Source: a virus
IMG/VR virus record: IMGVR_UViG_3300032265_000622
Span: 1 to 47,828 of that record
DNA length: 47,828 nucleotides
Direction: 5' to 3' (one strand)
A program made the position numbers and the translations under genes. The notes below the pieces were generated by a model. That model saw nothing but the letters and a program-made list of their open reading frames with translations, was not told where the DNA came from and ran no database searches. This document shows positions 13,083 through 42,524 of the stretch, piece after piece; the stretch's first letter is position 1; each line of letters begins with the position of its first letter.

Positions 13083-13394
13083 ATGGCAATAGCAAATGTT
13101 CCAGTAGGAAATACAAACACAACGATTTATAACAGCTCTGGCGATTTTCTGATCGCTACTATGATATTCTGCAATACTACTAATTCAACATCTGCCAATC
13201 TAACACTTTATCTTGTTCCTAGCGGAGGTAGCGTAGGAACAGGTAGCATGATAGTGAACACACTAACGATCCCTCCAACAGAAACAGTTTTCTTTGATAC
13301 AGAGAAATTAGTATTAGCTAGTGGAGATACTATAGTTGCTATAAGTTCTGTAGCAAGCACTATCACTTGCACTATAAGCACGGTGGCTATCTAA
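13083..13394 (+). CDS. Small beta-sandwich virion protein
   Basis: A 103-aa protein, almost all beta-strand prone and low in charge. The pattern 'VGNTNTTIYN... IFCNTTNSTSANLTLYLVPSGG... IPPTETVFFDTEKLVLASGDTIVAISS' fits a small beta-sandwich fold frequent among phage structural genes (attachment strands, then 'L-x-x-G-D-T-I-x-x-x-S'). A paralogue lies at 17045, and the giant protein at 21822 has matching end sequences. It has AAGGT upstream and abuts the next gene (stop TAA directly followed by ATG). Its exact position in the virion is unknown; a fibre or baseplate attachment role is inferred from context. Confidence 0.6.
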   Translation: MAIANVPVGNTNTTIYNSSGDFLIATMIFCNTTNSTSANLTLYLVPSGGSVGTGSMIVNTLTIPPTETVFFDTEKLVLASGDTIVAISSVASTITCTISTVAI

Positions 13395-13924: not shown

Positions 13925-13932
13925 TATAAATA
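13925..13932 (+). promoter_or_regulatory. Late promoter, exact consensus
   Basis: TATAAATA in the context CTATAAATATAG, 17 bases before the ATG at 13950, with GAGGT as Shine-Dalgarno. Confidence 0.75.
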
Positions 13933-17044: not shown

Positions 17045-17374
17045 ATGGCAATAAGTTTTAGTAATAAAGTTACATCAGGATTAGGTACTTCGAGCACACT
17101 GCTACTATCAACTAGTGCGAGCCAGACTATGACTATCATGGGTCTAAGCATCACTAATGTTACAGATAACATAATACAGGTAAGCGTGTCTGTAACAGAT
17201 GCTAGCAGCAACACAGCTTATTATTTGAGGAATTGTATAGTCGCACCAAACAGCAGTGTTAGGGTAGTAAATGGTGGCGAGCGTTTAGTGCTTACACCTA
17301 GCAATAGTTTATATGCGATCAGTAATGTAGCAGCGAGCGCAGATGTTATCGTAAGCTACGCGATACAGGTATGA
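17045..17374 (+). CDS. Small beta-sandwich virion protein, paralogue
   Basis: A 109-aa low-charge beta protein. 'MGLSITNVTDNIIQVSVSV' and 'VAPNSSVRVVNGGERLVLTP' then SNSLYAISN are the hallmark strands of a small attachment-type domain seen in many phage structural clusters. It resembles the 103-aa protein at 13083 in size, composition and strand order, and both sit directly next to fibre genes. The ATG begins 5 bases after the preceding stop. No clear Shine-Dalgarno is seen, so translational coupling to the upstream fibre gene is likely. Function is inferred as fibre or baseplate connection. Confidence 0.6.
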   Translation: MAISFSNKVTSGLGTSSTLLLSTSASQTMTIMGLSITNVTDNIIQVSVSVTDASSNTAYYLRNCIVAPNSSVRVVNGGERLVLTPSNSLYAISNVAASADVIVSYAIQV

Positions 17375-17384
17375 GGATAGATAA

Positions 17385-17744
17385 ATGACAAATTATGTAG
17401 GAGTCACACCAAAGGAAGCACTAGGAGATCAACCGAGATATTTCTATGCTCTACGTAGGACAGATCGAGGTGATTTGTATTTCACACAAGTTGATCTACT
17501 CAGTCCAACAGATAGTATCGCAATCAATGCACCGGGTGCAGGATCAGACGATTACACAGATTTTGAAGTAGGAACTGATTTTTTTGAAGGCAGAGATGTT
17601 TATCATAATAAGACTTATCCTAACCTAAACTATGAACAATATCGTTGGGACGACAAGAAAATTTATTACTATCTAGATGGTCAGGGCAATTTAGTAGCCA
17701 GGATCGGACAAACATACACATATCCCGCAGCAAATAATGCGTGA
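17385..17744 (+). CDS. Conserved T4-like structural-region protein, unknown role
   Basis: A 119-aa acidic, aromatic-rich protein: 'YVGVTPKEALGDQPRYFYAL', 'RRTDRGDLYFTQVDLL', 'DYTDFEVGTDFFEGRDV', 'YEQYRWDDKKIYYYLDGQGN'. Similar proteins (with the 'PRYFYALRR' and 'YxQYxWDD' blocks) occur in the structural gene clusters of marine T4-like phages. The composition differs sharply from the Thr/Ser/Gly-rich fibres around it, so it is probably a compact domain such as a baseplate or fibre-hinge component. GAGGA precedes the start. The stop overlaps the next late promoter. Confidence 0.6.
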   Translation: MTNYVGVTPKEALGDQPRYFYALRRTDRGDLYFTQVDLLSPTDSIAINAPGAGSDDYTDFEVGTDFFEGRDVYHNKTYPNLNYEQYRWDDKKIYYYLDGQGNLVARIGQTYTYPAANNA

Positions 17745-17775: not shown

Positions 17776-19236
17776 ATGGCAGAGTTTAAATTAGGTAGAT
17801 TGAGGTTCGTATGGCAAGGCGCCTGGACTACTAACACAGCATATGTTAAAGACGATGTTGTTAGAGTTAGTGGAAAAGTTTATGTTTGCCTAGTCGGTAA
17901 TACTAGTGCTAGTTCAGCTTATGGATTTAATGCAGACGTAACTAGCGGCTATTGGTCTTTAATGGCAGATGGTATTTCCTATAAGTCTGCGGGTTGGGTA
18001 TCCGGCGGAACAGCTTATTATCTAGGTGACATTGTTACAGTAAGTGGTGCTTCGTATATTTGTACTACTGCTAATAGTTCAGGATCAACATTTTCCGGTG
18101 ATAGCGCTAATTGGGCCTTGATAAGCAGCGGTATACAGAATAAGGCTACTTGGACAGCAAACACAGGTTATAATCTAAACGATATAGTTAAGATTGGCGG
18201 ACAAGAATATATTTGTATAGCAGCTCACACTTCAACAAATGCTGCTAACACAGGATTTTACACAGATCTAGGAACTAGCAAATGGTCTCTATTTGTTGGC
18301 GGATATAACAATACTACTTGGTATCAATCAACTTTCTATAATCTAAATGATGTGGTTAAGATTGGTGGAAAAGAATATATCTGTATATTACAACATAGTT
18401 CAAGCACAGGAACAGGTAATACTGGATTCTTTACCGATCTTACTGCTAATAAATGGTCAGTATTCGTAGACGGTCAATCTTGGAGGGGTGCTTGGGCAAC
18501 TAGCACATTCTATAACATTGGTGATCTAGTTAGCTACGGCAGCCTAGTTTATATCTGCTCGACAGCCCACGCTAGCTCAACTACACTTGAAACCAACCAA
18601 GGCAACTGGACATTATTCACTAGCGGTTTTAATTGGCTCGGAACTTATACTAACGGCCCAACAACTTACAAAGTAAACGATGTTGTTAGATATGGTGCAG
18701 ATCTTTACATATGCACACAGGCATATACATCAAGTTCAGCTACTATTGATCTAACTAAATGGTCTTTGTTTGTAGCTGGTTTAGAATTCCTCAACACCTA
18801 TAGCACAGGTACTAGCTATGCACTAGGTGACGTAGTAACCTATGGTGGTTATGTTTACCAATCTAAGGTAACTAATAACCTAAACAATAATCCAGTTACA
18901 TCGACTGCTAATTGGAGTGTAGTAACTACTGGTTATTCACAGCAGGGAGTATACAGTGGAGCAACAGCTTATAAAGTAGGCAGCGTAGTAAACTATGGTG
19001 CATATGTTTATGTTTGCATACTTGATACTACTGCAGGTATATTGCCAACTAACGTCACATATTGGTCACTGCTAACTACAGGTATCAACTGGTTAGGTGC
19101 TTGGAGCAGTGCTACTGCATACAAATTAGGTGATGCAGTTAGCAGAGGATCAAACAGTTACATCGCAGTAGCAGCAAACACCAATATCGATCCTGCAACA
19201 GATGGTGGTTCAAACTGGAATACATTGTCGCAAGGC
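17776..19236 (+). repeat. Nine CBM-like protein modules in tandem
   Basis: The modules begin near WQGAW, SAGWVS, KATWTA, NTTWYQ, WRGAWA, WLGTYT, FLNTYS, QQGVYS and WLGAWS, each ending with a W-[STN]-L-[FVLM]-x-x-G-like sequence. Modules 3 and 4 are the most alike ('YNLND[IV]VKIGG[QK]EYICI' and 'NTGF[YF]TDL'), suggesting a recent duplication. DNA copies are diverged, so this is an old protein repeat and not a CRISPR or tandem DNA repeat. Confidence 0.8.
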
Positions 19237-21795
19237 GCGGCTTCAAACGCATTGACTACTTCGGGTGATACACTTTATTATGGTGGTGCAGGTAATACAA
19301 GATTACCGATAGGCACACCTGGTCAAGTTATGAAGGTCAGTGCAAGCAATCTTCCAAGTTGGGGATATTTTGGACAAGTTACTAACGTATACTACGTAGC
19401 ACCGGGTGGAACTAACACACTTTCAAACGGTCAAGGAACAACTATAGATAAGCCATTTTTAACTATCGCTTATGCATTAGCTAATGCTCCATTCACTGGA
19501 AATGCTGTTGTATTTGTTAAGACTGGCACATATCAAGAAACTTGTCCAATGAGCATTCCTGCAAACACTTATCTAGTAGGTGATAGCATCGGAAGTGTAA
19601 CAATATCTCCTACATCAGGAACTAATACACAGAATATGTTCTTGATGCGTGACAATACCGGTATATTCAATATGACATTAACCGGTCTAGTTGGCACATT
19701 GGGATCTGCAAACTCATATGGAACTAAACGCCCAGGCGGCGCTGCATACATTAGCAATGATACTGCAGGTAGCGGTTTGACAACAACTAATCCGATTATT
19801 AGCAATATCACTATACTAGGAACAGGAACAAATGCAAGTGCAACAGGTATCTATCTAGATGGTGCTGCTAATCTAGGAAGCGATACTTTTAGCATAAATG
19901 ATGTTAATATAATACTATCAGACGGTATAGGTATATGGACTACTGGTAATTCAGCAAGGATAAGGGCCTCACAGGTATTCACATATTACTGCTATGCAGG
20001 TATGCTAGCGGAAGGTGGTGCTAGGATCATAGCTACAGGGTGTAGGAGTGAATTTGGTACATATGGTGTTATAGCAGAAGGTACTAGCTCAATCGAAACT
20101 CCAGCCACTGGTGTAGTTAATACACAAACACAGCAGGCTACGGTTGCTAGCGCATTATTGGGCGGTGGACAGATTCTATGGTTAGAATATGCTAATGCCG
20201 GACAGGCTTATTCTTCGGCTACTTACAGTCTTGCAAGTGGTACAGGATATGGCGCAGCAGTAAGTGCTGCTAACTTTATAACAAATGCCGTCCCAGAAGT
20301 ACGTGTTATTACAGGCGGTACTGGTTATGTGACTACAACAAACGTTGCACAGTTAGGAACATCGACTACTATTACGCTAAATGCGGCTGATACAGCAGCA
20401 ACAGGTGCATATGTAGGTATGAGGATCATACTTTCGAACGGTACTGGTGCAGGACAATATGGTTATATCACTGCTTATAATGGAACTACTAAAATTGCAT
20501 CTGTTAGCGCAGAATCTACATCAACTGCAGGATGGGATGTAGCAGTAGTTGGTACAGCAGTGGCAGCAGCATTAGATACGACTACACGCTATACTATTGA
20601 ACCGCGTGTTACATTTACAGGTACTGGTACTGGTATACTTGTTAGAGCTGTAGTAACAGCCGGTGCAATAACTGCTATGAGAGTTATCAATCCAGGTACA
20701 GGATATACTGTAGCACCAAGCATTACTGTAACAGATCCAAACTCAACCGGAGCAGCCACATTTACAGTAAGACAACAGGCAACTGGTGTATTAGCACAAC
20801 CGACTTGGACTAGTAGGGGTACAGGTTATTTTGATATACAGGCTACTATTACAGGTAATGGTATAGCTGATTATCAGGCAACTGGATCTAACATTTATAT
20901 CTCTGGTCTAGCAGCACTACCAACTGCTGGTGCAAACGTAACAATATCAAGTAACATATATACGCTTATACAGGTTATAAGTTACACCGGTACTGGTCCA
21001 TATGTAGCATATGTTCAGCTGGGAACTGCGTTCACTACTAGCAATGCGCCATCTAATTCAACAGCAGTAAGCATTACAAACAACTATAGTATAGCAAGAC
21101 TGCAAGGACAGGCATTCTTGCACATTGGTACAGGTAATACTGTTTCAGCAGGTTATCCAAACGTTACTACTGGTAATAAGATCACTGCAAACCAAACACT
21201 AAACAGCAATGGTGGTCGTGTGTTCTTTGATACTATGGATCAAGACGGTACTATAACACTTGGTAATTTAATCACATCTACCGAAGCGACAGGTATAGCA
21301 AGTATTAATGCTAACTTATTAACCATTAGCGGATTGAGTCAGCTTCAATTTGCTAGCGGTGGTGCTACTATAACACAGTTTAGCACAGATACTACAATGG
21401 CAGCAAATAGCAATGCACTTGTTCCAACACAAGCAGCTGTAAGAGCATTTGTTTATGCTACACTTAATCAGGGTACTACTACACTAACAGCTAGCAGTTT
21501 ATCAACTGGTAGGATCAATATCAGCGGACAAACAGTTGGTACTGTAACTGGTAGTGATCTATTATTAACAGCAGCAACTAACCAATTTATACAGGTAAAT
21601 TCACAGACCAACCTTAATGCAGCGATAGCGTTAACATCATCAGGATCGTTGACACTAAACAGCGGTTCAACATTAACAATTAATGGTACTACAGTAATCA
21701 ACACTACACCAACAGTGGCCACTGATATTACTAATAAAAGATATGTTGACCGCACACTTTCGCTAAATACAAGGTGGACAAACTATTGGGTATAA
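17776..21795 (+). CDS. Large adhesin: nine CBM-like modules plus beta-helix
   Basis: A 1339-aa protein. Residues 1-487 hold nine tandem modules of 50-58 residues with the pattern W-x-G-x-W... Y-x-x-x-D-V-V-x-Y-G-x-x-Y-I-C... W-S-L-F-x-x-G. The Trp/Tyr spacing resembles carbohydrate-binding CBM5/12-type repeats. From about 538 ('YYVAPGGTNTLSNGQGTTID' then KPFLTIAYAL) to about 790 it has a pectin-lyase-like right-handed beta-helix, with 'TGTYQETCPMSIP' and Ile/Asn-rich coils. Residues 830-1050 carry GTGY-type beta modules ('VINPGTGYTVAPSITVTDP'). The C-terminus has the fibre module 'RINISGQTVGTVTGSDLLL' and 'DITNKRYVD'. It likely binds and perhaps degrades surface polysaccharide; no catalytic Asp/Glu triad could be assigned by eye, so depolymerase activity is unproven. 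Confidence 0.7.
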   Translation: MAEFKLGRLRFVWQGAWTTNTAYVKDDVVRVSGKVYVCLVGNTSASSAYGFNADVTSGYWSLMADGISYKSAGWVSGGTAYYLGDIVTVSGASYICTTANSSGSTFSGDSANWALISSGIQNKATWTANTGYNLNDIVKIGGQEYICIAAHTSTNAANTGFYTDLGTSKWSLFVGGYNNTTWYQSTFYNLNDVVKIGGKEYICILQHSSSTGTGNTGFFTDLTANKWSVFVDGQSWRGAWATSTFYNIGDLVSYGSLVYICSTAHASSTTLETNQGNWTLFTSGFNWLGTYTNGPTTYKVNDVVRYGADLYICTQAYTSSSATIDLTKWSLFVAGLEFLNTYSTGTSYALGDVVTYGGYVYQSKVTNNLNNNPVTSTANWSVVTTGYSQQGVYSGATAYKVGSVVNYGAYVYVCILDTTAGILPTNVTYWSLLTTGINWLGAWSSATAYKLGDAVSRGSNSYIAVAANTNIDPATDGGSNWNTLSQGAASNALTTSGDTLYYGGAGNTRLPIGTPGQVMKVSASNLPSWGYFGQVTNVYYVAPGGTNTLSNGQGTTIDKPFLTIAYALANAPFTGNAVVFVKTGTYQETCPMSIPANTYLVGDSIGSVTISPTSGTNTQNMFLMRDNTGIFNMTLTGLVGTLGSANSYGTKRPGGAAYISNDTAGSGLTTTNPIISNITILGTGTNASATGIYLDGAANLGSDTFSINDVNIILSDGIGIWTTGNSARIRASQVFTYYCYAGMLAEGGARIIATGCRSEFGTYGVIAEGTSSIETPATGVVNTQTQQATVASALLGGGQILWLEYANAGQAYSSATYSLASGTGYGAAVSAANFITNAVPEVRVITGGTGYVTTTNVAQLGTSTTITLNAADTAATGAYVGMRIILSNGTGAGQYGYITAYNGTTKIASVSAESTSTAGWDVAVVGTAVAAALDTTTRYTIEPRVTFTGTGTGILVRAVVTAGAITAMRVINPGTGYTVAPSITVTDPNSTGAATFTVRQQATGVLAQPTWTSRGTGYFDIQATITGNGIADYQATGSNIYISGLAALPTAGANVTISSNIYTLIQVISYTGTGPYVAYVQLGTAFTTSNAPSNSTAVSITNNYSIARLQGQAFLHIGTGNTVSAGYPNVTTGNKITANQTLNSNGGRVFFDTMDQDGTITLGNLITSTEATGIASINANLLTISGLSQLQFASGGATITQFSTDTTMAANSNALVPTQAAVRAFVYATLNQGTTTLTASSLSTGRINISGQTVGTVTGSDLLLTAATNQFIQVNSQTNLNAAIALTSSGSLTLNSGSTLTINGTTVINTTPTVATDITNKRYVDRTLSLNTRWTNYWV

Positions 21796-21821
21796 TCTAA
21801 CAAAAATCTAGGAGAATTTTA

Positions 21822-24800
21822 ATGACAACAGCCGCAAAATATGGCGCACAGGACTTAAACGGTAATCCAGTAAATTACCAGCAGCTAGTAAACCCTGCTA
21901 ATACGGGTCCTAGCAACGTCATAGTAAACACTACATTCGTTAACAGGACTGGTACTGCTAACAAAGCAAGATTAGCACTATCATCCACTGCATTAGTTCC
22001 ACAGACTGTGTCCAGCACACAGGGATTATACCCTATCACTGCTAACCAGACTAACAACGCAGCTAGCGTTGAAACACAACAGATACTTACTATTGGTAGC
22101 ACAAGCAGCGTAACCAACGCATTTACTACTGCACCGATCACGATAACAGCTACGACAGCAGGTACTAACCAGCTTACTTGTGTAAACACAGTTACACTAT
22201 CAGTTGGTCAACCAGTAGTGTTTGCTGCGTCCATCGGCGGCTTGCAGGCAAATATTAACTATTATGTATTGAACATAGTAAGCAACACTAACTTTACAGT
22301 TTCAAACGTATGGAACGGTGCTATTGTTTCACTCATTACACAGACAACTAACGTGCTAATGTACCAGTCAACAGCTAACTTAGCAGTCGGTATGCCAATA
22401 CAATTCCACGGCACTCCGTTCGGTGGTGTAGCATATAACTTCAACTACTATATCAACACTATCCCAACTAACAACAGTTTCACTGTTACAGCAGTTGCAG
22501 GAAGCGGTACTGCTTTTGCTCTAACTACAAACACACTAGGAACATTTAGTCCTTTCAATGCTGTTCCATTAACAGGAACTAGCTTTAACCCAACTATCAA
22601 CAATCCAGCAGCACTTAACGTATCTAACGTCGTTAGTGCTACTTACAATAGCGTGCAGGGATTAAGCGTAGGTTATGCTAACAGCACAGGTAATATACTT
22701 GCTACTGCTCCGATCAGCATCTATTCTATATATAACCAAAACGTAAGTGCTGCACCTTATAATCCAGCATTCATCCTATGCTCATCAACACTAACACTTA
22801 CTATTGGAATGCCAGTAGTAATTACAGCTGGTGCTAACTTAGGTAGCTTAACTTCTGGTACGATCTACTACGTATCACAGATTCTAAGCAGCATCGCATT
22901 CAACGTTTCAACTACACCAGGTGGTCCTGTACTACCAATGAGTTCAGTGACTCCGGTTGGTTGCGTGATGCAGCAAGCTACTACTTTCTTACAGCCTGGA
23001 CAACCGATCGTATTCAACGGTAACGGTACATATGGTGCAGGTGTTGCTAACCAAGCAGGTGTTGGTGGACAGCTATTTGGTAACTTAAACGTTAACCAGC
23101 CATACTATGTTTTAACTATTCCAACTGCTACAACATTTACTGTTTCAGCTACGCCAGGCGGATCTGCTGTAACGCTATTCACTGACGGTGCCAACGGTAC
23201 TATCATTACTGCTGGTAACTTTAAGATTGGACAGCAGTATGTTATCGTTAACACAGGTAGTACAACATTTACTACTATTGGGTCTGGTTTTAACACACAG
23301 GGCACTGTATTCGTAGCAACTGGTCCTGGAACAGGAACAGGTACTGCTATGGTTGCTACTACGTATGTTGCAGGTGGTTCACTTGTAACCGGTGTAACTT
23401 ATGCTATTGGTTTCTTAGGAAGTGTAACAAGCGCCAACGTAAACACCGCAGCAGGTACTACAGCAAGTTCTATCAATATACAGGGTAACACTTCAAACTA
23501 TAGTGCTATCGGTGGTTTTACATACGCTAACCCAACTGGTTCAGCAGCAGCTAATAACCAAGTAGTAAGCTACTTTGTAGCAACTACTACAACTACTGCA
23601 AGCGGTGTATTCATTCCGATCAATCCAGCTATCACAACTAATGCTATCAACATTGCAACACCTCTAACAATAGCAAGTTCAAGCGCAGTCACAAACGCAT
23701 TTACTATGGCAGCAGTACAGGCAACAGCTACATCTGCTACTACTGGTTATATCACTTGTGCAAGCACTAACACTTTTGCTATTGGTGCTCCGATAGTATT
23801 TGATACTTCATTCTCTACTATCACCGCAGGTACTGCATACTATGTTCTAACCATAGCCAGTGCTACAACATTCCAAGTATCAGCTACACCAGGTGGTGCG
23901 CTATATCCACTAACAACTACTTCAGCACAGACGGTCAATATCTATCAAGCTACAACTAACTTGTTTGTTAATGCTCCAGTAATATTCACTGGTACTGTTA
24001 TCGGTGGTATCACAAGCGGTCAGATCTATTATGTACAGAACCTACTTACAACTACTGTTGGTGGTGCTGCTATCCCAAATAGCTTTACTATCACAAATAT
24101 TTACGGTGGTACTTCAGCTCTAACACTTACTACTGCAAGTGGTAGTATGGTAGCAAACATTACTCCTGTAGTTCCAACAGTGAACGTAAATGCTTCAACA
24201 GCAAGCGGTTCTCTAACAGTTGGCGGTGTGTTAGGTACTTACACTAACTATTTCACTACACAGTACGCTACTTGTTCAGCAACAGCCGGTGTTGGTCCAT
24301 ACGAAATAACTGTGAACACTACTAGCTGGATGGCAGTTGGCCAACCAGTAGTATTCAGTTCAATTAACAGCGGTTCTGCAGTATTTGCTAGCGGTGCTAT
24401 TGGTAGCACCGGTTTAACGGCAGGTACTACTTATTATGTTGTAAGCATCGATAGTTTAACAGCATTCCAGGTATCAGCTACTTACGGTGGTACTCCGGTA
24501 GCATTAGGTGCAACTACACAGACTATGTACGTTTACCAATCAACTGCTAACCTAAACGTTGGACAGCCAATTGTGTTTACAGGCTCAAGTGCAACTGATT
24601 CTAACATCGCATTGAACACAACTTACTATGTTAACTCAGTATTAGGACCTGCATACTTTACTATCACAAACACTATATATGGAACAAACTTCGTATTAGC
24701 AGGCAGTGGTACTAACGTAAACAGTGTACAGATTGGACCACGTCCAGTAATGACTATTTCCGCTACTGTGACTTCAAGTGGTGTTACTATGATGACATTC

Positions 24801-27800
24801 CCAGTAAGTGCTACACAGCAGTATACTAACTTAATCACTATCAATACTACATATCCACTAACAATCGGTATGCCGGTAGTATTCAGTAATACTACCGGAC
24901 TTATGGTTGCTAACCAATTGTTCTACGTAGCAAGCATCGTTAACGGTACACAGTTTACTGTATCGGCTACTAAGGGTGGTCCAGTATATGTGCAAAATAC
25001 TACAACAGGTATCAGTGCAAACTTATATCAAGCTACTACTAACTTATATCTAAATCAACCACTTGTGTTCTTCCCAACACAAGCTACGGCATCAGTATCA
25101 AATGCTACAGCAGTGCCAACTGGTCTTACTAATATGGTATATGGTTTTACAGTATACATAAACAGCTTTAACAGCTTGATTTCATTCACTGTATCACTAT
25201 CACCTAATAGTTCGCTTCCGGGCGCAACTGCTGCAACTTCACTTTCACTATCAAGTGCTGGTACAACAAACGCATTTGCTTTCCTACCGATGCAGAATAA
25301 CGTAGTATCAAACTTTGCTTTCCAAACTGCTCCAGTAGCAGTTACAGCAACTACTGCTACTGCACCATACTTAATCACTTGCGCAAGCACAGCTGGTTTT
25401 GCACTTGGTCAACCAGTACAGTTTGACACTGCTATTGGCGGCTTAACTGTTAATACAACTTACTATGTATTAACTATTGCATCGTCAACTACATTTAACG
25501 TAAGCACTGTACCATTTGGTGGTGTCGTAGTTACTACAGCAGCTACTGGCGGTACTGGTAACGTATATCAATCAACTGCTGGATTAACAGTTGGATCTGC
25601 TATACAGTTTACTACCGCAAGCAGTTATTTTGGTTTACCAACTGATACATACAAGGCTATCGTAAACGCAAACTTTAACAGCTTATCAGCTGGTATAACT
25701 TACTATGTACAGAGCATACCAAGTTTCAATACTGTTGTATTAACACTGATCAACGCAAGTCCAGCATCGTTTGGTGCTACTACTAGCGGTACAGCAGGCA
25801 GCTACGGCGGTATTGGTATGTTACCATTAGGTGTTGGTGCATACACAGGAGCTACCATTTATATAGGTGGCGGTAATACGAGCAGCGTAACCGGTGCAGC
25901 AGTACAAGGCGCACAGAGCGGTGCTATGTACCTCAACACTATCAGTCCTGTTCCTCCGCTAGTAATTGGTACAACAACTACTACTACTAACGTGTTTACG
26001 ACACAGACTGTTAACGTAACAGCTACTTCGTCAGTCGGTAACTTGATTACTTGTGCTACGACACAGTATTTCTTCCCAGGTATGCCAGTGATATTCAGCT
26101 CAGGTCTAGGTGGATTAAATGCTAACACTACCATATACTATGTGTTAACTATACCAAGTGCAACAACATTTACTGTTTCAGCTAGCTTTAACGGTGCAGT
26201 GCAGGCACTAACTACTGGTTCTGGTGCAATATCTGTGCAGCAGGCAACATTGTTCCTACAGACTAACCAACCGGTTATATTCTACGGAACACTAGCAGGT
26301 AACCCAGTAGCAGGTACTCCATACTATGTACATGAAGTTATCAGTGCTACAACATTTACTGTTAGCCAGTATGTTAACTACAACATATTTGCTCTAGCAA
26401 CTGCATCTGTATCTAACCAGTTTAACGCAGTAACTGGTCCATATAGGCAGTATAACCTAACAGCTACAGCGGCAGCTGGTACACCAGTTTTCACGCTAGC
26501 ATCATTTAGCTTGATTGGAACACAGTCAACTAATGGTACTAACCTAGTGATAGCAAACAATACCTTTGCACTATATCCAGGTATGCCAATATCTGTAAGT
26601 GGTACATCTGGTGTGCTAGTAGCAAGCACTATCTACTATGTAACTGGTATATATGATGAGCATCGTTTCACAGTTTCAATAGCACCACCTAACCAGTATG
26701 GTTCGCCAAACAGTGTAGGCTTTATCCCAACTACAAACAGTATCATTTATCAGACACCAAACGGTACTACACTACCTGTTACTACACAGCTAACTGGTTC
26801 TGTAACACTTTATCAATCAGCAGCTAAACTACAGCTCAATCAACCAGTTATGTTCTATGGTAACTTGGGCGGTATGACTGTAGCTTCAAACGCTCTAGTA
26901 ATTGGCAGGACTTACACTATTATTTCAGTAGGTAATGCTACATTTACTTCAGTAGGTGCAGCAGCTAATACTGTAGGTACTGTGTTTACTGCAACTGCTA
27001 CTGCAAGTGGTACGACTGGTGTCGTGTATACTGGACAGATAAACACTAACTCAGTGTTACTTCCAAATACTGTTTATTATGTAATCTCAACTACTAACGC
27101 AGGTGTTGGTTCTAGTGCTGTAGCAGTATCGGCAACACCAACATATGCAGGAACTAACATTACTTCATATATCACTGGTGTTACTGTCGCTTCACCCGGT
27201 GTGTTTAGTACTTCAGGTTTACCATTTACATTAGTGCAGGGACAGGCTATTACAATAACCGGTTCAGCTAGTGCGTCACTAACTGGTGCTGGTACAACAG
27301 CACCAAACCGCACACTTTATGTAACTGGTGTAAGTGGTACTTCATTCTCATTAGAACCATATCCAGGTAACGGTGCTGTTGCTAACGCTTCTTCAACTAG
27401 CGTAAGTGGTTGGACATTTACACTAAATGGCATCAATCCAAATATCGCAGTCAACTTGCAATCAGCAGGTTCGGCAGCACTTGGACTAACTACAGCAGGT
27501 GGTACTAATGCTGCAATGACAATGGTTCCGATGATGAGCAATGTTACTGCACCAAATGTGTTCCAAGCACAACCACTACCGATCGTATCAACAAGCGGTG
27601 GCGGTGCTTATACATTTACTACAGGTGTAATGACTGTAGCTTATGCTACTTCGATAGGTTCTAACTTAATAACTTGCTTATCAACAGCAGGCTTAACAGT
27701 TGGTATGCCAATATCGTTCAGTGCTACATTAGGTAACATCTCAAGTGCTACAACTTATTATGTGTTGACTGTAAACAGCTCAACAACATTTACAGTAGCA

Positions 27801-30035
27801 ACTACTTGGGGCGGCCAGGTGCTAGTATTAACTAATGCTTACAACTACTCATATGTAAACGCTTCAACTGCTAACCTAACACTTGGTCAACCAATGGTGT
27901 TTACTGGGTCAGTATTTGGTGGCATAATAGCATACCAAACATACTATGTAGCAACTATACCAAGCACTACTACATTTACCCTCGCTAACAGTTTAGCTTC
28001 AGCGATCGGTATCGGTGGTAGCAGTACTGCTGTACAGAATACAACAGCAACAGGATATATGTTAGCGTATGCTGCAACTGGTAGCACCACAACAACAGGT
28101 GCTGTAGTTGGTGGTGTTACTACTGGTGCATTTGGTTCAATTAGTTCAAGCACATATGGACTAGTAATTGGTCAACAGTATATGATTACTTCGATCGGTT
28201 CTACAACTTGGACTACATATGGTGCAGCTACAAATACTGTAGGTACTATCTTTACTGCAACTGCACAAGGTGCAGCATACGGTGGTAGTGGTACATACAA
28301 CATTGGTGCAGGTACTGGTACTGCGGTCGAGATAGTAGGACTAGTAGGCAATATGAATGCTAGCATCGCATCAAATGCACCTGCAGTATTCGTAGGACCA
28401 ACTATCACTGTAACAGGCATCAACGGTACACAGCTTTACACACCAGGTAGCACAAACTATCTAGCTGTTGGTCAGGCTGTAGTGTTCACTGGTTATACAT
28501 TCATAAGCGGTATCACAGCTGGTCAGACCTATTACATACAGAGTATCGTAAGCAGCAACGTATTCACACTAAGCGCAACTAACGGTGGTGGTGTATTAAC
28601 ATTCACTACTGGTAGTAATACACTAACTATGCAGATCCTAAACAGCATCGGTACAAGCTTAGTTCCATACCAGACTTACTTCACACAGAGTGTTCCAAAC
28701 CCAATAGCTTGGAGCATCAGCAGCACTAACGTACAGGCTCCGGCTATAACAATAAGTGCTACTGCAACTGGTACAGCAATAACTACTGGAGCTTATACAG
28801 TAACAGCAGTTTCTGCGACAGGTAACTTAATCACTACAGCATCAACAGCTGGTTTAACAGTTGGTCAACCTGTAGTGTTCCCAACTACGGTGCTAGGTAA
28901 CTTAGTAGCAACTACTATCTACTATGTGCAGAACATTTATAGTTCTACACAGTTTAGCATAGCTACTTCGTTGACTGCACAAGCATTTAACCCAGGAACT
29001 GCAACAGGTAGTGTGACTATGTATATCGCAACAGCTAACTTAGCAGTTGGACAACAGGTTAACTTCTCAGGATCAGTGGGTGCAAGCGGTCTTGTAGTAG
29101 GCGCTAACTACTACATACAGAGCCTAAATGCTAACGGGTATCAGTTTACTCTAGCAAGCACAGTAGGTGGTAGTGCTCTATCGTGGACTGCTGCTACACT
29201 AGCTAACGCTGCAACAGCTAACTTCGTAATAAATGCTTTACCTTTAGCTACTTCACAGACTGCAACTGTAAGCTATCAGAGCAACATATTAACACTAGCA
29301 ACTGGTAGCAGCACACAGTACTTGTTACCAAACCAACCGGTAGTGTTTACAAACACTAGCGGTGCTAACTGGAGCAGCTTAAATACTCTGCTTACATTAG
29401 CAAGTGCTACTGTTCCTGCAGCAAGCTCTGCATATGTTGTAACTACAACTACTACTAGCTCAAACGTTATTACAGTTAACTATGTGACTAGCAACACTGC
29501 TGCAAGGACAGCTACGACACTAACAACTGGTGCGTTCCCTGCACTAACACTCAACCAACCGGTTGTGTTTATAGGAACAGGTTCAGACGCTATAGTAGTA
29601 AACCAGACTTATTATATACAGAGTATAACAGCTGGTACAGGTATTACTATATCAACTACACCAGGCGGTGCAGCAGTTGCGATGTCAGGTACTTCACCAA
29701 CAGCAGGTTCATTACTAATGATTCCAGCTTACTATGTGAAGGCAGTTACTAGCAGTAATACACTGCAACTAACAGCTACACCAGGCGGCGCAGCGGTGAA
29801 TATACCAACATTCTACGCACAAGGTACTAACATCGTACAGATGACACCAATGCCAATGAACACAGACTTCATCTACGGTGACGTAGCTGTAGCTGCACAG
29901 ACACAGGTAACTGCGAACGGTATACTAGTACCACCAAACACTTACTTGTATGCTTCAGCAGGTCTAACAGTATTTGGTTCTAACGCACAGAGCGGTATAA
30001 ACGCTATAGCGATAGGTGTACAGGACCTAGTATAA
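21822..30035 (+). CDS. Giant repeat protein (2737 aa) with split beta-sandwich ends
   Basis: One uninterrupted 8.2-kb frame with AGGAG upstream. Composition is extreme: Thr, Ala, Val, Gly, Ser, Ile and Asn dominate and charged residues are very rare. At least 20 units share 'L-x-V-G-Q-P-V-x-F... G-G-[LI]... T-x-Y-Y-[VI]-x-x-I... F-x-V-S... G-G'. Several are grouped behind a leader like 'S-x-V-T-N-A-F-T... I-T-A-T... L-I-T-C-A-S-T'. Three copies of a second module ('YTIISVGNATFTSVGAAANT' then VGTVFTAT) lie at about 23214, 26896 and 28159. The N-terminal 60 residues ('VIVNTTFVNRTGTANKARLA') and C-terminal 60 ('DFIYGDVAVAAQTQVTANGI' then LVPPNTYLYASA) together look like one small phage beta-sandwich protein interrupted by the repeats. 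Probably a long fibre or surface adhesin; no enzyme motif. Host and receptor are unknown. Confidence 0.7.
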   Translation: MTTAAKYGAQDLNGNPVNYQQLVNPANTGPSNVIVNTTFVNRTGTANKARLALSSTALVPQTVSSTQGLYPITANQTNNAASVETQQILTIGSTSSVTNAFTTAPITITATTAGTNQLTCVNTVTLSVGQPVVFAASIGGLQANINYYVLNIVSNTNFTVSNVWNGAIVSLITQTTNVLMYQSTANLAVGMPIQFHGTPFGGVAYNFNYYINTIPTNNSFTVTAVAGSGTAFALTTNTLGTFSPFNAVPLTGTSFNPTINNPAALNVSNVVSATYNSVQGLSVGYANSTGNILATAPISIYSIYNQNVSAAPYNPAFILCSSTLTLTIGMPVVITAGANLGSLTSGTIYYVSQILSSIAFNVSTTPGGPVLPMSSVTPVGCVMQQATTFLQPGQPIVFNGNGTYGAGVANQAGVGGQLFGNLNVNQPYYVLTIPTATTFTVSATPGGSAVTLFTDGANGTIITAGNFKIGQQYVIVNTGSTTFTTIGSGFNTQGTVFVATGPGTGTGTAMVATTYVAGGSLVTGVTYAIGFLGSVTSANVNTAAGTTASSINIQGNTSNYSAIGGFTYANPTGSAAANNQVVSYFVATTTTTASGVFIPINPAITTNAINIATPLTIASSSAVTNAFTMAAVQATATSATTGYITCASTNTFAIGAPIVFDTSFSTITAGTAYYVLTIASATTFQVSATPGGALYPLTTTSAQTVNIYQATTNLFVNAPVIFTGTVIGGITSGQIYYVQNLLTTTVGGAAIPNSFTITNIYGGTSALTLTTASGSMVANITPVVPTVNVNASTASGSLTVGGVLGTYTNYFTTQYATCSATAGVGPYEITVNTTSWMAVGQPVVFSSINSGSAVFASGAIGSTGLTAGTTYYVVSIDSLTAFQVSATYGGTPVALGATTQTMYVYQSTANLNVGQPIVFTGSSATDSNIALNTTYYVNSVLGPAYFTITNTIYGTNFVLAGSGTNVNSVQIGPRPVMTISATVTSSGVTMMTFPVSATQQYTNLITINTTYPLTIGMPVVFSNTTGLMVANQLFYVASIVNGTQFTVSATKGGPVYVQNTTTGISANLYQATTNLYLNQPLVFFPTQATASVSNATAVPTGLTNMVYGFTVYINSFNSLISFTVSLSPNSSLPGATAATSLSLSSAGTTNAFAFLPMQNNVVSNFAFQTAPVAVTATTATAPYLITCASTAGFALGQPVQFDTAIGGLTVNTTYYVLTIASSTTFNVSTVPFGGVVVTTAATGGTGNVYQSTAGLTVGSAIQFTTASSYFGLPTDTYKAIVNANFNSLSAGITYYVQSIPSFNTVVLTLINASPASFGATTSGTAGSYGGIGMLPLGVGAYTGATIYIGGGNTSSVTGAAVQGAQSGAMYLNTISPVPPLVIGTTTTTTNVFTTQTVNVTATSSVGNLITCATTQYFFPGMPVIFSSGLGGLNANTTIYYVLTIPSATTFTVSASFNGAVQALTTGSGAISVQQATLFLQTNQPVIFYGTLAGNPVAGTPYYVHEVISATTFTVSQYVNYNIFALATASVSNQFNAVTGPYRQYNLTATAAAGTPVFTLASFSLIGTQSTNGTNLVIANNTFALYPGMPISVSGTSGVLVASTIYYVTGIYDEHRFTVSIAPPNQYGSPNSVGFIPTTNSIIYQTPNGTTLPVTTQLTGSVTLYQSAAKLQLNQPVMFYGNLGGMTVASNALVIGRTYTIISVGNATFTSVGAAANTVGTVFTATATASGTTGVVYTGQINTNSVLLPNTVYYVISTTNAGVGSSAVAVSATPTYAGTNITSYITGVTVASPGVFSTSGLPFTLVQGQAITITGSASASLTGAGTTAPNRTLYVTGVSGTSFSLEPYPGNGAVANASSTSVSGWTFTLNGINPNIAVNLQSAGSAALGLTTAGGTNAAMTMVPMMSNVTAPNVFQAQPLPIVSTSGGGAYTFTTGVMTVAYATSIGSNLITCLSTAGLTVGMPISFSATLGNISSATTYYVLTVNSSTTFTVATTWGGQVLVLTNAYNYSYVNASTANLTLGQPMVFTGSVFGGIIAYQTYYVATIPSTTTFTLANSLASAIGIGGSSTAVQNTTATGYMLAYAATGSTTTTGAVVGGVTTGAFGSISSSTYGLVIGQQYMITSIGSTTWTTYGAATNTVGTIFTATAQGAAYGGSGTYNIGAGTGTAVEIVGLVGNMNASIASNAPAVFVGPTITVTGINGTQLYTPGSTNYLAVGQAVVFTGYTFISGITAGQTYYIQSIVSSNVFTLSATNGGGVLTFTTGSNTLTMQILNSIGTSLVPYQTYFTQSVPNPIAWSISSTNVQAPAITISATATGTAITTGAYTVTAVSATGNLITTASTAGLTVGQPVVFPTTVLGNLVATTIYYVQNIYSSTQFSIATSLTAQAFNPGTATGSVTMYIATANLAVGQQVNFSGSVGASGLVVGANYYIQSLNANGYQFTLASTVGGSALSWTAATLANAATANFVINALPLATSQTATVSYQSNILTLATGSSTQYLLPNQPVVFTNTSGANWSSLNTLLTLASATVPAASSAYVVTTTTTSSNVITVNYVTSNTAARTATTLTTGAFPALTLNQPVVFIGTGSDAIVVNQTYYIQSITAGTGITISTTPGGAAVAMSGTSPTAGSLLMIPAYYVKAVTSSNTLQLTATPGGAAVNIPTFYAQGTNIVQMTPMPMNTDFIYGDVAVAAQTQVTANGILVPPNTYLYASAGLTVFGSNAQSGINAIAIGVQDLV
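22080..29850 (+). repeat. Inserted module array inside the giant protein
   Basis: By reading the translation I count at least 20 units with a YYV or YYI core ('TYYVLTIASSTTFNVS', 'TYYIQSIVSSNVFTLS', 'IYYVQNIYSSTQFSIA' and others). Units tend to alternate between an 'ITCASTxxL' type and a 'YQSTANL' type. DNA-level copies differ at many positions, so the array is old or under diversification. The limits given are approximate. Confidence 0.75.
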
Positions 30036-30062: not shown

Positions 30063-30102
30063 TAAATCTCGGTAGCTTAACCACTACCGAGATTTATTTT
30101 TT
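30063..30102 (+). terminator. Intrinsic terminator after the giant gene
   Basis: TAAATCTCGGTAG and CTACCGAGATTTA form a 13-bp perfect stem (30063-30075 and 30084-30096) with an 8-nt loop, followed by TTTTTT. It ends the transcript 30-60 bases after the stop at 30035. Confidence 0.93.
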
Positions 30103-30135: not shown

Positions 30136-33100
30136 ATGACAAACACAGCGCTATTTAAAAAAGGTACTAAATCGACACTGCAACTAGTGCAAGGCACTAA
30201 TCTCTCTTATCAAAATCTAGGCGTAGCGATATACAATCCTACACAGATAGATCAATGGAATTTAGGAGATTTTGTTTCTGCTGATTATATCATAAACGCA
30301 GAATTCAGTAACAATGAAAGAGAAACCATACACGCTACTCTCGTAGCTATGCCTGGACAGAGCAGTGTTACTGTGTATGCTAGAACTAGTCTCTCTAGGC
30401 AGCTGCTAAATGTTAGTTCGAATGCGACTAATTCTTATGCACAGCTTATCGTAGAACCAGCAAGTGCAGCAGTACAAGGTAGCGTGGTCACTATATTTGC
30501 CAATTATGCGAAAACAACACAACCACTAGTTCCGATTAACTCACCGGCTACAGCTAATTCTTGCAGTTGGTCAGCCATTTCTAATGCTACTAGTTTAAAC
30601 ATAACAGTAGCCAATCTAACGGGAAATATACAAGTTGGACAGATAGTTAGCAATGCCAATCTACCAAGTACTGCGCTAGTGACTGCTTGGAACAGTTTAA
30701 CTAACACCCTCACTATAGGAAATTTTGTAGCTACAGCATTTAGTTCACAATCTAATCAAAAGATAATTTTTACGACAGGACCTAGCCAATTATTAAATTT
30801 AACTAATACTATCGCTCCTAACAAATCTTTTGGTTCGATATATGTTCCTGGACAACAGCCTATAGTAGCAGAAATCACCAATGATACTTTTGATATAGTA
30901 GCAGGATATGGTATAAAAATAATCACACAATCTGCTTATCAAAAACTCACTATCTCAAATCAGGCCATTACTGCGTTATCTGTTAGCGGCCAACCTAGCC
31001 TAGATGCTACTATCAGCGGGGTTAATAATGTAAAAATAGTCGCAGGAAATGGCATAACCTTAGCAACAAATCCATTGACTATGGCCCTAACTATAAGTGC
31101 TAACGGTATTACTACTACTACAGATGATTCGGTTTCTTACAGTTCTAGCAATTTTACTATAAAAGGCGCGAACGGATTATCTACTAGTACAGCTAATGGT
31201 ATCATAACTATCAATAATACCACTACAGGGTATAGCAATTTTACAGATGGTACTACGACTACTACGGCAACATCTAGATCAGCAACTTTCAGGATAAGAA
31301 GTGGTACTGGTATAACTGCAACAGTTACAGCAGATGGTGTTTTAATTACTAATAACGGAGTACTAACTGTAGCAGGATTAAATGGGTCTATAACAGTTGA
31401 TCAATTGATATCCGCTATCAATACTTCTGCGATATCTAGTATCAATCTACCTATCGGTTCTTTAACTCCTAGCACCGGTACATTTACTAGCGTCAATGCT
31501 AGTGGGTTACTAAACGTAGGAGGTGTGTTAACAGTAACTGGCGCAGCGATATTTAACAATGGATTGACTGTAAATCTTGGAAACACAACAAATATCAACG
31601 GACCATTCATAGCTAGCTCAACTGCGAATATAAATGGTGCTTTAACTGTAGCTAGCACATCTTCTTTTACTGGTGCCTTAACTGCATCAAGCAATGCTAC
31701 ATTTACTGGTAACACTAATATTACTGGTACCCTTACTACACAGCAAGCACAAGAATTATATGTACCCATCACTAATATAGGTTCAACTATTTCTTTTAAT
31801 TTTATCAATGGTGCTATCTATCTAATCAATACACCAACTTCTAACTTTACAGCAGCATTTACCAACGTGCCTACTACTAGTCCGTATACTATTTCAGTAT
31901 CTATGTTATTATATCAAGGCTCTAGTGCAGGATATATACCAACTATATTATCTATTAACGGTGTTATACAGACTATACGCTGGCAGGGCGGCTCGCAGCC
32001 ATCCGCTACTGCGAGTCATATACAGATAGTGAGTTTTGTTTTCGTTGTTAATACTACAACAACGCTAGCTAACGGAACAGTAGAAATATTGGCACTACAG
32101 AGCGCAACTGTTACACAAGATAATTCACCGAATGCTGTAACATTAGCTAATACCGGATCGGTCTCATCTCAGAATAGTACCATACCATTTGCAGCAACAT
32201 ATGCATCACAGTTCAATGGTTCAAACTATCTAAGATATAATTCTGCTGCTTATGCACTAGGTTCTGCTAATTGGACTATAGAATTTTTTGTTTATACAAC
32301 AGTATCACCGAGCACTACAAGCGTTCAGGGATTATTCAGTTTAGAAACTAACCAATATGTCACAGGAAATACTGCTAGCGATATACAGGTATTCTTAGCT
32401 AGCGGCGGTAATAAAACACAGCTTTTAACCGCTCAGTCAGTGGGTGTTACTACAGATAACTCGGTCAATTCTTTATCAATAACTAACACTGGTTCAGTTA
32501 CATCAGGAAATACAACTATACCTTTTGGATCTACATATAGTTCACAATTTTCCGGTACTAATCGCCTAACTGTAATTTCATCTGCATTGTCACCTAGTTT
32601 AAGTAATTTCACTATTGAATTTTGGGTTTATACTACTACTAGTTCTACACAACAAGGACTATTCGGCTTAGGTGCTACTACTACTCCGGCATTCACAGCA
32701 CAGGTAGGGTTAAGTATAAACGCTAGCAATCAATGGGTACTATATGCCAACGGAGTTTCAGGAGGCACAGTTTCGACTGCAACTGTAAGCACTTCTACTT
32801 GGTACCATGCGGTTGTAGAAAGGAACCAAACAACTACTACCTTAGCAATCAATGGAACAACAGTTATAACAGTAGCAAATGATATTACGAATTATACCAG
32901 TTATACTACTCTTTCAATAGGAGTCAACGGCGGTATAAGTCTATCAGCTAACGGATTAGTTGGATATATCAGTAATTTCCGTTTGGTGATAGGTAACGCT
33001 GTATACACCTCACCATTTACTCCTCCAGGTGTAGCATTAACTGCTACACAGACAGCAGGAACAAATATTTCAGCTATCACAGGAATCGCACCAACCACTA

Positions 33101-33504
33101 GTAGCGGAATATATGTAACTGCCAACGGTGGAACCTATTATACAAATACAACTATATCTGCAAATACCTGGTATCACATGGCATTAGTTAAGAACGGTAC
33201 TACAGATACACTCTATCTAGCAGGTACGAGCATATGGAGCACGACAAGCGATAGTACCAATTATACTGGAACTTATCTATCGTTAGGAAACAGCGGCGGC
33301 GGCAACTCTGTAGGTGTTTATCCGACAGGAATAACAGGCTATCTATCAAATTTCCGTATAACTGCAAACGTAGCAGTATATACAGGAACATTTACTCCAC
33401 CGGCCGTTGCATTAGCTACAACACAGTCTAGCGGCACTAATATTTCAGCTATAACTACTACATCTGGTTATACAGTTTTAGGTTCACTGACGGATTATAA
33501 CTAA
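30136..33504 (+). CDS. Fibre protein with LamG/concanavalin-like domains
   Basis: A 1122-aa protein. The N-terminal 130 residues ('FKKGTKSTLQLVQGTNLSYQ' then NLGVAIYNP) look like an attachment domain. The middle (about 280-560) contains fibre repeats such as 'LPIGSLTPSTGTFTSVNASG'. From about 650 on there are LamG-type jelly-roll features: 'YASQFNGSNYLRY', 'NWTIEFFVYTT', 'FTIEFWVYTT', 'STWYHAVVERN', 'NTWYHMALVKNG', 'GYISNFRLVIGNAVYT'. A complete LamG unit (about 770-983) is flanked by what read as the N- and C-terminal halves of another, so one jelly roll may be inserted in the other. LamG folds often bind glycans, which suits a receptor-binding role. GGGTGAT is a possible Shine-Dalgarno. Confidence 0.7.
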   Translation: MTNTALFKKGTKSTLQLVQGTNLSYQNLGVAIYNPTQIDQWNLGDFVSADYIINAEFSNNERETIHATLVAMPGQSSVTVYARTSLSRQLLNVSSNATNSYAQLIVEPASAAVQGSVVTIFANYAKTTQPLVPINSPATANSCSWSAISNATSLNITVANLTGNIQVGQIVSNANLPSTALVTAWNSLTNTLTIGNFVATAFSSQSNQKIIFTTGPSQLLNLTNTIAPNKSFGSIYVPGQQPIVAEITNDTFDIVAGYGIKIITQSAYQKLTISNQAITALSVSGQPSLDATISGVNNVKIVAGNGITLATNPLTMALTISANGITTTTDDSVSYSSSNFTIKGANGLSTSTANGIITINNTTTGYSNFTDGTTTTTATSRSATFRIRSGTGITATVTADGVLITNNGVLTVAGLNGSITVDQLISAINTSAISSINLPIGSLTPSTGTFTSVNASGLLNVGGVLTVTGAAIFNNGLTVNLGNTTNINGPFIASSTANINGALTVASTSSFTGALTASSNATFTGNTNITGTLTTQQAQELYVPITNIGSTISFNFINGAIYLINTPTSNFTAAFTNVPTTSPYTISVSMLLYQGSSAGYIPTILSINGVIQTIRWQGGSQPSATASHIQIVSFVFVVNTTTTLANGTVEILALQSATVTQDNSPNAVTLANTGSVSSQNSTIPFAATYASQFNGSNYLRYNSAAYALGSANWTIEFFVYTTVSPSTTSVQGLFSLETNQYVTGNTASDIQVFLASGGNKTQLLTAQSVGVTTDNSVNSLSITNTGSVTSGNTTIPFGSTYSSQFSGTNRLTVISSALSPSLSNFTIEFWVYTTTSSTQQGLFGLGATTTPAFTAQVGLSINASNQWVLYANGVSGGTVSTATVSTSTWYHAVVERNQTTTTLAINGTTVITVANDITNYTSYTTLSIGVNGGISLSANGLVGYISNFRLVIGNAVYTSPFTPPGVALTATQTAGTNISAITGIAPTTSSGIYVTANGGTYYTNTTISANTWYHMALVKNGTTDTLYLAGTSIWSTTSDSTNYTGTYLSLGNSGGGNSVGVYPTGITGYLSNFRITANVAVYTGTFTPPAVALATTQSSGTNISAITTTSGYTVLGSLTDYN

Positions 33505-34294: not shown

Positions 34295-37200
34295 ATGTCA
34301 AAGAGTCAAATTAGAAGTTACGTTTTTACACCAGGTGCTGCCGGTGCAGGTACTATTGAAATACCTGGTAAGTATGATTTACAGCAACTTTTAGTGATAA
34401 CAAACACTACGAGAAATACTATAATCTATAATTTTGCTGATAGTAGTTTTTCTGGAACTACTGTTTCTTTTAATAGAAACGTAGATGGTTACTTTCCCTT
34501 CGCATTAGATAATACAGATGGAAGCACGATCATTACGCTCGCAGTAAACACATCTGCTATGAGTACTAATGATACGCTACAGATTTTCGCTGAATCACCG
34601 TTCCAATATGTTCGTATGCCAGAAATTGGCACTGATGCTTTTGAACGAACTCGCGTTGCTCAACCGACGTCCATGCTTGACGCAGACTTTGAATACGGTA
34701 TGCAACCAACTAAATGGTTGACCATCAGCCAAGAACGCGGTTATCCTAGTATCTATGAAGTTCCGGGAACTGACCTTGCTGTCACAGCAGCTACTACAGA
34801 TGCTAGCACACAGTCGGGCGGTGTTAGCACAGCAGCTTCTGTCATAACTATAACTACTGCTATAGCACACGGTTATACGGTAGGACAAGCTATCACTATC
34901 AAAGGATTTAATTCTGCTATCACTGGGTTTGATCGTGCAGAAGGATCATTCCTAGTATATACAGTGCCTTCAACTACTACATTTACCTATATAGCTAAGG
35001 GTAAAGTAGGCTATAACAACGGTGATAATATCTGGACTGCTTTCGTACAGTTGAGGCAGGGAGGGTTGTACACGGGATCTGCGATCAACGCAGTTATCAA
35101 TACTACTATAACCGGCACTACTACTGCTACTCCTGCATTCACTGCAAACTTTAATAGCACTACTGCAATGATTTACACTAGCGGTACTATTCCTGCATTA
35201 GGTACATATATAACTGGCTCAGGTATACCTGCCGGTACTTATATAGTATCAGGAACCAGTCCAAATTTCGTATTAAACCAGACAGTACCAAATGCGACAG
35301 GTACGAGTGTCACTGGCTCAACAAATAATATCACCGTAGCTAACACTACAGGTATGTATCCGGGTGCAACAGTAGTAACACAACAGATCAGCACAAATGC
35401 TGTCGCCAGCAATAGCGCAAATAATTATATCACATTAGGAACTACTATAGGTCTTGTAGTTGGGCAAAGCCTAAACTTTACAGGTGTTTCTTTTGGTGGT
35501 ATCACAACCGGCGGCACTTATTATGTAAAGACTATCGTCGATACTAGGACTATAATAATGTCTACAGATGCTGGGTTAGCAACAACTTTTGTTCCGTCAG
35601 GAACTACGGTAGGTGGTAATATGTTTGTTGTTTCTGGTTCTAGCTTTGGCGGCTTAACTAGCGGCAATACTTATTACATAGGATCAATACCAAACAGCAC
35701 TACGATCACTCTAAGTGCTAACATCATGTACACGACTACAATTTCTGCAACTTACGCAACAAATAACTCTGTTCGTTTTAACGGTTATACACTAAATGGT
35801 CTAACCTATACTGGTACAGCCAATATGACAGTGGGTGAACAGATTACTATTACTGGTTCTGCTATCGGTAACTTGTCAGCAGGTACATATTATGTTTACC
35901 AGATCATCGATGGTTATACTGCGATCCTTAGCACAGTAGCTAACGGGTACCAGACAAATACATTTATAACACAAACATCAGCAACAGGTAGCATGGCAGC
36001 TATGGTAGGAACACTAGTTCCATTAACAACAGCATCTGGTTATCTATGGTCAACAACTACTAACCAACCAACATTTAGCACAAGCACACCAACAACAACA
36101 GCAGCTTTTACTGCTTATGTTGGTACTAATATTACAAGCAATATTACCAGTTTCACAAATGGCGTATTTACTTGCACACAGCCAAGCATCACGTTAACAG
36201 TAGGACAGATTATCAACGTAGCCGGTACTAATACAGGCGGCGGCAGCATAAGCGGTAGTGCTACTGTTAGCACCACAAACTATTATATTACAGCGACTAA
36301 TGGTACAACATCGTTTACATTATCAGCTTCACTCGGCGGTGCCACGATCACTACTACAGGATCTAGCATAACAGGTTGGACATTTATAGCTGCTTCTAAT
36401 ACCATGACAGTGTCAGCAGTAGCTAACGGAACATTGGCAGTAGGACAAAGTATAGCACTTTCAGCTAATAATACAGTACCTAGTCTAACTACAATAACAT
36501 CACTTAGTCCTAGCGGCACAGGTACTACTGGTACATACACACTGAGCCAAACTGGTGCAGTGCAGCCATCTAGCACATTTATCAGCACCTCAGGACAAGC
36601 TACTGTAACAGTTAATTTTTATAGCAATCACGGATTTGTTCCTGGACAAACTATTAACGTGTTTGTATCATCAGATAATGGTGTCAATAACCATTCAGCA
36701 GTACAAGGTCCATACTTTGTTGAAAACATATTAAGCGTTACTTCTTTCACATTTACAGCTAGGACGGTAGGATTTATACAGTCTGGAACTATTTACGGAA
36801 ACATATATGCTAGATCCGATGCTAGCTATAGCCACAGGCCATTCGACGGCGGTGTTCAGTTAGGTACTGGATTACCTAGTTATGGTGGACAAGCTATACG
36901 TATGAGCAAGAAATACATACGTTATCAGTCAGGTAAAGCTATTAACTTTAATACTGGGTTGCTTATGGCTCCAAATTATTTCGTAAGGCAAGTCACTGCT
37001 AATGGTACTTCTATAGGTAGTACTATTACAGTAGTAACCGATGACGTCGATCATCAATGCCAGATAGGTGCCACAGTCATACTTAGTGGCGTTCTTACTC
37101 CTGGATTTAACGGAACTTACGTAGTTACTGCCGTTATAGATGAAAGGACTTTACAGTTCCTATCAACTACTACGCTAGGCGCTATCACAGCAGTAACAGG

Positions 37201-41969: not shown

Positions 41970-42524
41970 TTACCCTCCAGATTTGCGACTAAGCGCCTTA
42001 ATAGCATGGGCTTGTCTTCTATTTGCAGCGCCTTCAATGCCATAAATTTCTTCCCAAGTCATACCTTGTTTTTTACCTTTATTTGACGATGTTCCGCCCT
42101 TATTTGGATGAGTTTTTCCTAACATTGCTCCGCCGTCTTTTCTTATCCAAGTATCAGTGCCCAGTTTTTTTCGCCTTGCGTGAGCATTTTTTTGAGCTGT
42201 ACTCATGCGTTTTATACTTTCTAGATTATGTGTTTTATTATCTCCAGGAGTTCTTATATTAAAGCCGTTATTAATAGAATCATATTCTATTACATATTTT
42301 TCTTCTAAAATATTTAACTCTTCTAGAGAAACAGCATTTTTATCTATCACTTCAAAGATAAAAGAATCAATACCATATTTCTTTATAGCATTATGGAAAT
42401 GATAAGTTTTTTCACTATATCTACTACCGCTAATATGTTCTAATCTACGATGGTTAGGATCTTGTATAGTTTGACCTATATAAGAACGCCCAGAATCTAT
42501 ATGTGTAAACTTATAGATATACAT
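41970..42524 (-). CDS. GIY-YIG homing endonuclease with NUMOD3-like tail
   Basis: A 184-aa protein. The N-terminal GIY-YIG nuclease domain begins 'MYIYKFTHIDSGRSYIGQT', then 'RRLEHISG' supplies the Arg/His positions, and 'LEELNILEEKYVIEYDS' with 'NGFNIR' holds the catalytic Glu. A second half with 'RMSTAQKNAHARRKKLG', 'GKTHPNKGGTSSNKGKKQ' and 'MTWEEIYGIEGA' matches NUMOD3-type DNA-binding segments of Seg/I-TevI-like enzymes. It is a free-standing gene placed exactly between gp14 and gp15: its ATG overlaps the gp14 stop (TAATG), and its last codons form the gp15 Shine-Dalgarno. Such genes spread by cutting alleles that lack them. It looks intact. Confidence 0.9.
   Translation of the reverse strand: MYIYKFTHIDSGRSYIGQTIQDPNHRRLEHISGSRYSEKTYHFHNAIKKYGIDSFIFEVIDKNAVSLEELNILEEKYVIEYDSINNGFNIRTPGDNKTHNLESIKRMSTAQKNAHARRKKLGTDTWIRKDGGAMLGKTHPNKGGTSSNKGKKQGMTWEEIYGIEGAANRRQAHAIKALSRKSGG

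Follow-up and report, generated by a model that had tools for sequence, protein, structure and literature searches.

The giant gene and its surroundings

We have analyzed a giant open reading frame in a virus record of 47,828 nt (IMGVR_UViG_3300032265_000622; 47.8 kb), the whole of which is called the window here. Its major capsid protein is 68 to 72% identical to the corresponding proteins of PA5oct, Phosso and other large T4-like phages. The frame encodes 2737 aa with no internal stop, and the remaining five frames of the same DNA contain between 95 and 371 stops. The features of the locus are as follows.

17385..17744, + strand: phrog_8997 gene, second synteny marker (E=3.9e-18; same order in S-CAM3)
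17776..21795, + strand: tail-fibre gene (phrog_9851), synteny marker directly upstream of the giant gene (E=2.4e-158)
21810..21814, + strand: Shine-Dalgarno-like AGGAG, read from the sequence
21822..30035, + strand: giant open reading frame, 2737 aa
21822..21992, + strand: residues 1-57, first half of the divided compact domain, located with the compact-family profile
21993..29846, + strand: residues 58-2675, an insertion of ~2618 residues that separates strand 4 from strand 5, placed by the profile split on loop 50-58 of the compact model
22176..29810, + strand: 24 recognisable beta-barrel-like modules of ~59 aa (residues 119 to 2663), mostly paired, found with an iterated module HMM
26235..26408, + strand: module at residues 1472-1529; L001 and L002 have an extra segment in its loop, near residue 1496 (base ~26309), as read from the alignment of three giants and their sequences
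29847..30032, + strand: residues 2676-2737, second half of the divided compact domain; the C-ends of relatives match profile positions 49-104 and the window was aligned to these relatives
30063..30096, + strand: terminator-like hairpin followed by a T run, just past the giant stop (1 found against 0.1 expected)

Scans of viral contigs yielded 11 full-length, non-redundant relatives, the shortest of 870 aa and the longest of 2970 aa, as well as duplicates and fragments. None of the 12 giant genes contains a stop or frameshift, and the same architecture is found across independent contigs. No relatives were detected in bacterial genomes at the sensitivity used. The giant protein is 77 to 82% identical to its two closest relatives (2812 and 2836 aa), with which dN/dS is 0.15-0.19 over the full length and <0.3 in each 200-codon window. 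Between the window and L002 the ratio is 0.15 overall, 0.155 in the middle and 0.03 and 0.11 at the ends; across five pairs of giants it is 0.15-0.34, with synonymous changes predominating. Because full-length relatives exist at this level of identity and dN/dS is low, the open frame is not a product of chance. An earlier note on this DNA had described an 8.2-kb frame that stays open and a protein region almost free of charged residues, and both descriptions hold: D, E, K and R together account for 1.21% of the 2737 residues.

The tail-fibre protein encoded upstream carries nine CBM_5_12 stretches, and the gene that follows the giant has a laminin-G/ConA-like domain. The product of this following gene (30136-33504) is 1122 aa long; the gene at this place in L002 (10290-11282) encodes just 330 aa. 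Four relatives with a phrog_8997-type gene, L011-L014, have two large genes downstream (about 1880 aa and >1400 aa), and in L011, L012 and L014 a protein of 2111 aa is encoded upstream; very large virion genes are therefore common in the group to which the giant belongs.

The split homology of the two ends

The homology of the giant protein to a family of compact phage proteins is divided between its two ends. In viral contigs this family numbers at least 440 related stretches; 80 of them were fetched, and counted from the start of the match their frames all span 103-109 aa. Its members include proteins of S-CAM1 (YP_007673141), S-CAM3 (AOV58842) and P-SSM2 (PSSM2_302). The compact protein L120, modelled with 59 aligned sequences, is predicted to be a single 8-stranded beta-sandwich (pLDDT 97, pTM 0.88; strands 3-11, 15-21, 26-36, 42-49, 59-66, 71-79, 84-89 and 94-104). 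Some BFVD matches of the compact model (TM 0.65-0.94) are named 'virion (structural) protein' or tail fiber-like. Its structure matches in the PDB, all of them weak, are to jelly-roll and nucleoplasmin-like folds (by name STMV coat, HDT2, FKBP39, a pentameric phage capsid protein and the HFTV1 turret).

Each of the 12 giants carries the first half of the compact-family profile (positions ~16-52) within its first ~60 residues (p<=0.002, from 500 shuffles per giant). In the window, residues 32-57 match profile positions 27-52 with 12.1 bits, above all 500 shuffles. The second half (positions 49-104) is found in the last ~55 residues of 9 of the 12 giants, with 27-39 bits in full-length searches; when the C-end segments were searched in isolation, nine relatives scored 32-40 bits. 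In the window and in the two giants nearest to it this half has drifted. The window's copy, which is without the ERTG motif, scores only 4.8 bits against the compact profile (p=0.018) and is tied to the family through the other giants. When the N and C ends are joined, nine giants score 44-67 bits; the remaining three, which are the window's protein and its nearest relatives, score 22-24 bits. The two profile halves are complementary and in order, and in the unmodified giants they are split at about position 50 (50-52). On the compact model this split falls in the longest loop (50-58), between strands 4 and 5, with four strands on each side. The giant chain thus departs from the contiguous 103-109 aa of the compact family by the ~2618 residues inserted at profile position 50-52.

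Matches across the junction agree with this arrangement. The joined ends of one relative, L021, match compact proteins of ~106 aa contiguously (S-CAM3, E=1e-5), and the joined-ends query also spans the junction in proteins of S-CAM1, P-SSM2 and AcaML1. The compact domain occurs as well in the 'tail fiber protein' group phrog_11338, matched at best with 1.5e-5. The ends of relatives were required for these results; the window's own joined ends gave no real match among phage records. PDB sequence searches with the ends, the compact family and the modules returned chance matches only. At their start the relatives keep 'MTTAAKYGAQDLNGN...NNIVVNANFANRNGADAKVRLA' and at their end 'TDFIEYDALIAGNGVLERTGIIVPPNTYLYASSN...IGIQEAV', and the compact cyanophage protein and most giants have the motifs DFIEYD...GVLERTGI in common.

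The position of the gene is conserved together with this homology. All 12 giants have a phrog_9851 fibre homolog directly upstream; of the 92 compact-family ORFs at the fetched loci, some of which end at contig edges, 57 have one in that position. The phrog_8997 gene precedes the fibre gene by 31 bp in the window, and the order in S-CAM3, ahead of the compact gene, is the same. Giant and compact genes occupy one slot, directly behind the phrog_9851 tail-fibre gene. Records that carry a giant contain no extra compact copy, as all matches fall within the giant ORFs. Two other window genes, 13083-13394 and 17045-17374, were considered as the compact counterpart and set aside; they match other phrogs best, and position and profile favour the S-CAM-type protein. 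A search among further family members found no split forms of <870 aa: 68 of 70 have frames of <=135 aa and the remaining two (137 and 450 aa) carry the domain uninterrupted.

The earlier note had proposed that the two ends read jointly as a compact virion protein of ~110 aa, a small beta-sandwich enlarged by loop insertion. This proposal is supported by the division of the profile between the N and C ends, the L021 matches across the junction, the position of the split in the strand 4-5 loop of the compact model and the synteny with the compact gene. It would have been refuted had the joined sequence resembled no compact family of phage proteins; the joined ends of L021 lead instead to the ~106-aa cyanophage proteins. 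Searches of the full giant protein against Pfam and PHROGs gave nothing useful, since the domain that would identify it is divided between the two ends; genes of this kind thereby stay hidden from annotation.

Modules of the insert

The insert contains 24 modules with the pattern 'VGQPVVF...YYV...FTVS', recognised by the iterated HMM at E<=1e-3. The suggestion that everything between the ends consists of such modules was slightly overstated, since they cover only 53% of the giant; the remainder of the insert is linker and a second repeat type, 'VIG.xY.I...GTVFTA'. Relatives have between 8 and 36 modules, protein length rises with module count, and the largest insert among the giants adds about 2,860 residues. 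The modules are only 28-45% identical to the first one in alignment, so they are not recent tandem copies.

By sequence the modules have no confident match in Pfam or the PDB; the best Pfam hit is End_beta_barrel at 0.094, and no E1 FCCH family is among the families listed. A full-length model of the 870-aa relative L039, built on 10 sequences, is confident solely in parts of the module region (module pLDDT 67-86), and its ends are of low confidence, mostly with pLDDT <40. The best structure matches of this model are E1 FCCH domains (Foldseek probability ~1 for the top matches, E 8e-3), and the phage endosialidase barrel 4hiz_C matches with probability 0.97; no structural E value is below 0.001. 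As modelled, the modules weakly resemble E1 FCCH/endosialidase beta-barrels. These barrels are themselves insertion domains, which suits the use made of the modules in the giant.

Gain or loss of modules is also seen within the array. The window and L002 have their modules in collinear order. Two further module matches in L002 lie around a segment of ~92 residues that is present in L001 and L002 and missing from the window. The site of this segment is a loop of another module, with the 'FYG' stretch of that module on one side and the 'YYV' stretch on the other. Judged from the aligned sequences, the same type of insertion thus recurs one level down, whether by gain or by loss.

The YYV modules occur a second time in this phage. 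A phrog_5838 virion protein of 1823 aa (34295-39766), whose L002 counterpart has 2146 aa, carries them at about residues 380-690 and 1250-1313, and module insertion is therefore not confined to the giant. Its core protein differs from that of the giant and it has only five confident module stretches.

Proposed architecture, alternatives and related systems

Very probably the giant protein is a virion base domain with a long looped string of beta-barrels, the probable purpose of which, judged from its setting, is attachment. The giant gene would be an ortholog of the gene for the compact beta-sandwich virion protein (~106 aa) of phages. Small beta-barrel modules would have entered the strand 4-5 loop of this sandwich in one lineage, and the array would then have grown by in-frame additions (8 to 36 modules are known), some of them within the loops of other modules. 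The two ends would probably fold together into the sandwich, and this may dock close to the tail fibres of the virion, where the compact protein is presumed to sit as well. Because the ends would pair in this way, the module string would start and finish at one base and project from the virion surface as a closed loop of beta-barrels. The neighbouring genes suggest that attachment is the most likely role of the insert, through many weak contacts of the glycan type. We give an even chance to the broader proposal of open-ended growth by nested insertion, which would produce a branched and closed loop with as many as 36 barrels and with both ends on one sandwich, possibly repeated around the virion.

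The same architecture might instead have a structural role, in capsid or tail decoration, stability or fibre spacing. This is a possibility of some weight, and the weak likenesses of the base to a jelly-roll capsid, the pentameric phage capsid protein and turret folds are in its favour; however, the gene stands among a CBM_5_12 tail fibre and a laminin-G/ConA-like protein, a setting typical of host recognition regions. T4-like aquatic phages keep their host-recognition genes in a variable structural region with tail fibres and lectin-like domains (PMC7029224).

It is unlikely that each end forms a small domain of its own, in which case the C-terminal domain would be completed by the stretch that precedes it and the N-terminal one would merely look similar. 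The last ~95 residues of L039 do align contiguously to profile positions 13-103, and the ends of its model lack confidence. The preceding stretch, however, behaves like shuffled sequence in nine giants (p 0.1-0.8) and reaches p 0.002-0.018 at only 4-6 bits in the other three, whereas all 12 have N-terminal segments that outscore shuffled sequence. In every giant the joined N and C ends outscore the preceding stretch plus the C end (62 against 46 bits in L039), and the complementary, ordered profile halves likewise argue for a single divided domain.

Cutting after synthesis, with the ends acting as the compact protein and the insert released or discarded, seems quite improbable. T4-like phages process several virion proteins, and a predicted prohead protease homolog is encoded at 7353-7979, but an in-frame array conserved under selection does not agree with such a fate. 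That the insert is a slippery, neutral repeat expansion or an assembly artefact without a role, as its low-complexity composition and the range of 8 to 36 modules might suggest, is highly improbable given the independent contigs, the dN/dS of 0.15-0.34 along the whole length, the divergence of the modules and 12 intact genes.

Taken as a base domain with a looped string of modules, the giant can be compared with several known systems. The compact cyanophage protein has the same two profile halves in order and the same slot after the phrog_9851 fibre, but nothing between strands 4 and 5, where the window has its ~2618 residues, and it retains the ERTG motif that the window's C-half has lost. 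The E1 FCCH and phage endosialidase barrels (PF12195) are insertion domains whose folds match the L039 model; unlike them, the giants' modules are serial and nested by the dozen, and the likeness comes without a significant sequence match and at structural E >0.001. The host recognition cluster of pelagimyophages and cyanomyophages (PMC7029224) also belongs to T4-like aquatic phages and has a variable structural region with fibres and lectin-like domains; in the portion of that account considered here, gene content rather than loop insertion is described, with no split giant.

Insertion of a domain into a loop is well known. A virion domain of ~106 residues with 24-36 domains in one loop, and with change of modules within modules, would be an extreme case; no described case of such a loop-inserted giant was found in the titles and abstracts searched, a coverage outside which most subscription journals fall. 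The series of 0, 8, 15, 23-26 and 35-36 modules offers material for studying the growth of phage surface proteins.

Three other features of the window were recorded. The T4 late-promoter core TATAAATA occurs only three times, at 13925-13932 (+), 44041-44048 (-) and 1298-1305 (-), a total below chance expectation; each copy is followed at a distance of 6-40 bases by the start of a gene on the same strand (genes at 13950, 44035 and 1258, respectively). A perfect 69-bp tandem repeat of 2.1 copies (3128-3270) lies within a gene for 956 aa (1331-4201). A putative GIY-YIG-type homing endonuclease of 184 aa ('YIYKFTHIDSGRSYIGQT') is encoded at 41970-42524 (-), flanked by two structural genes.
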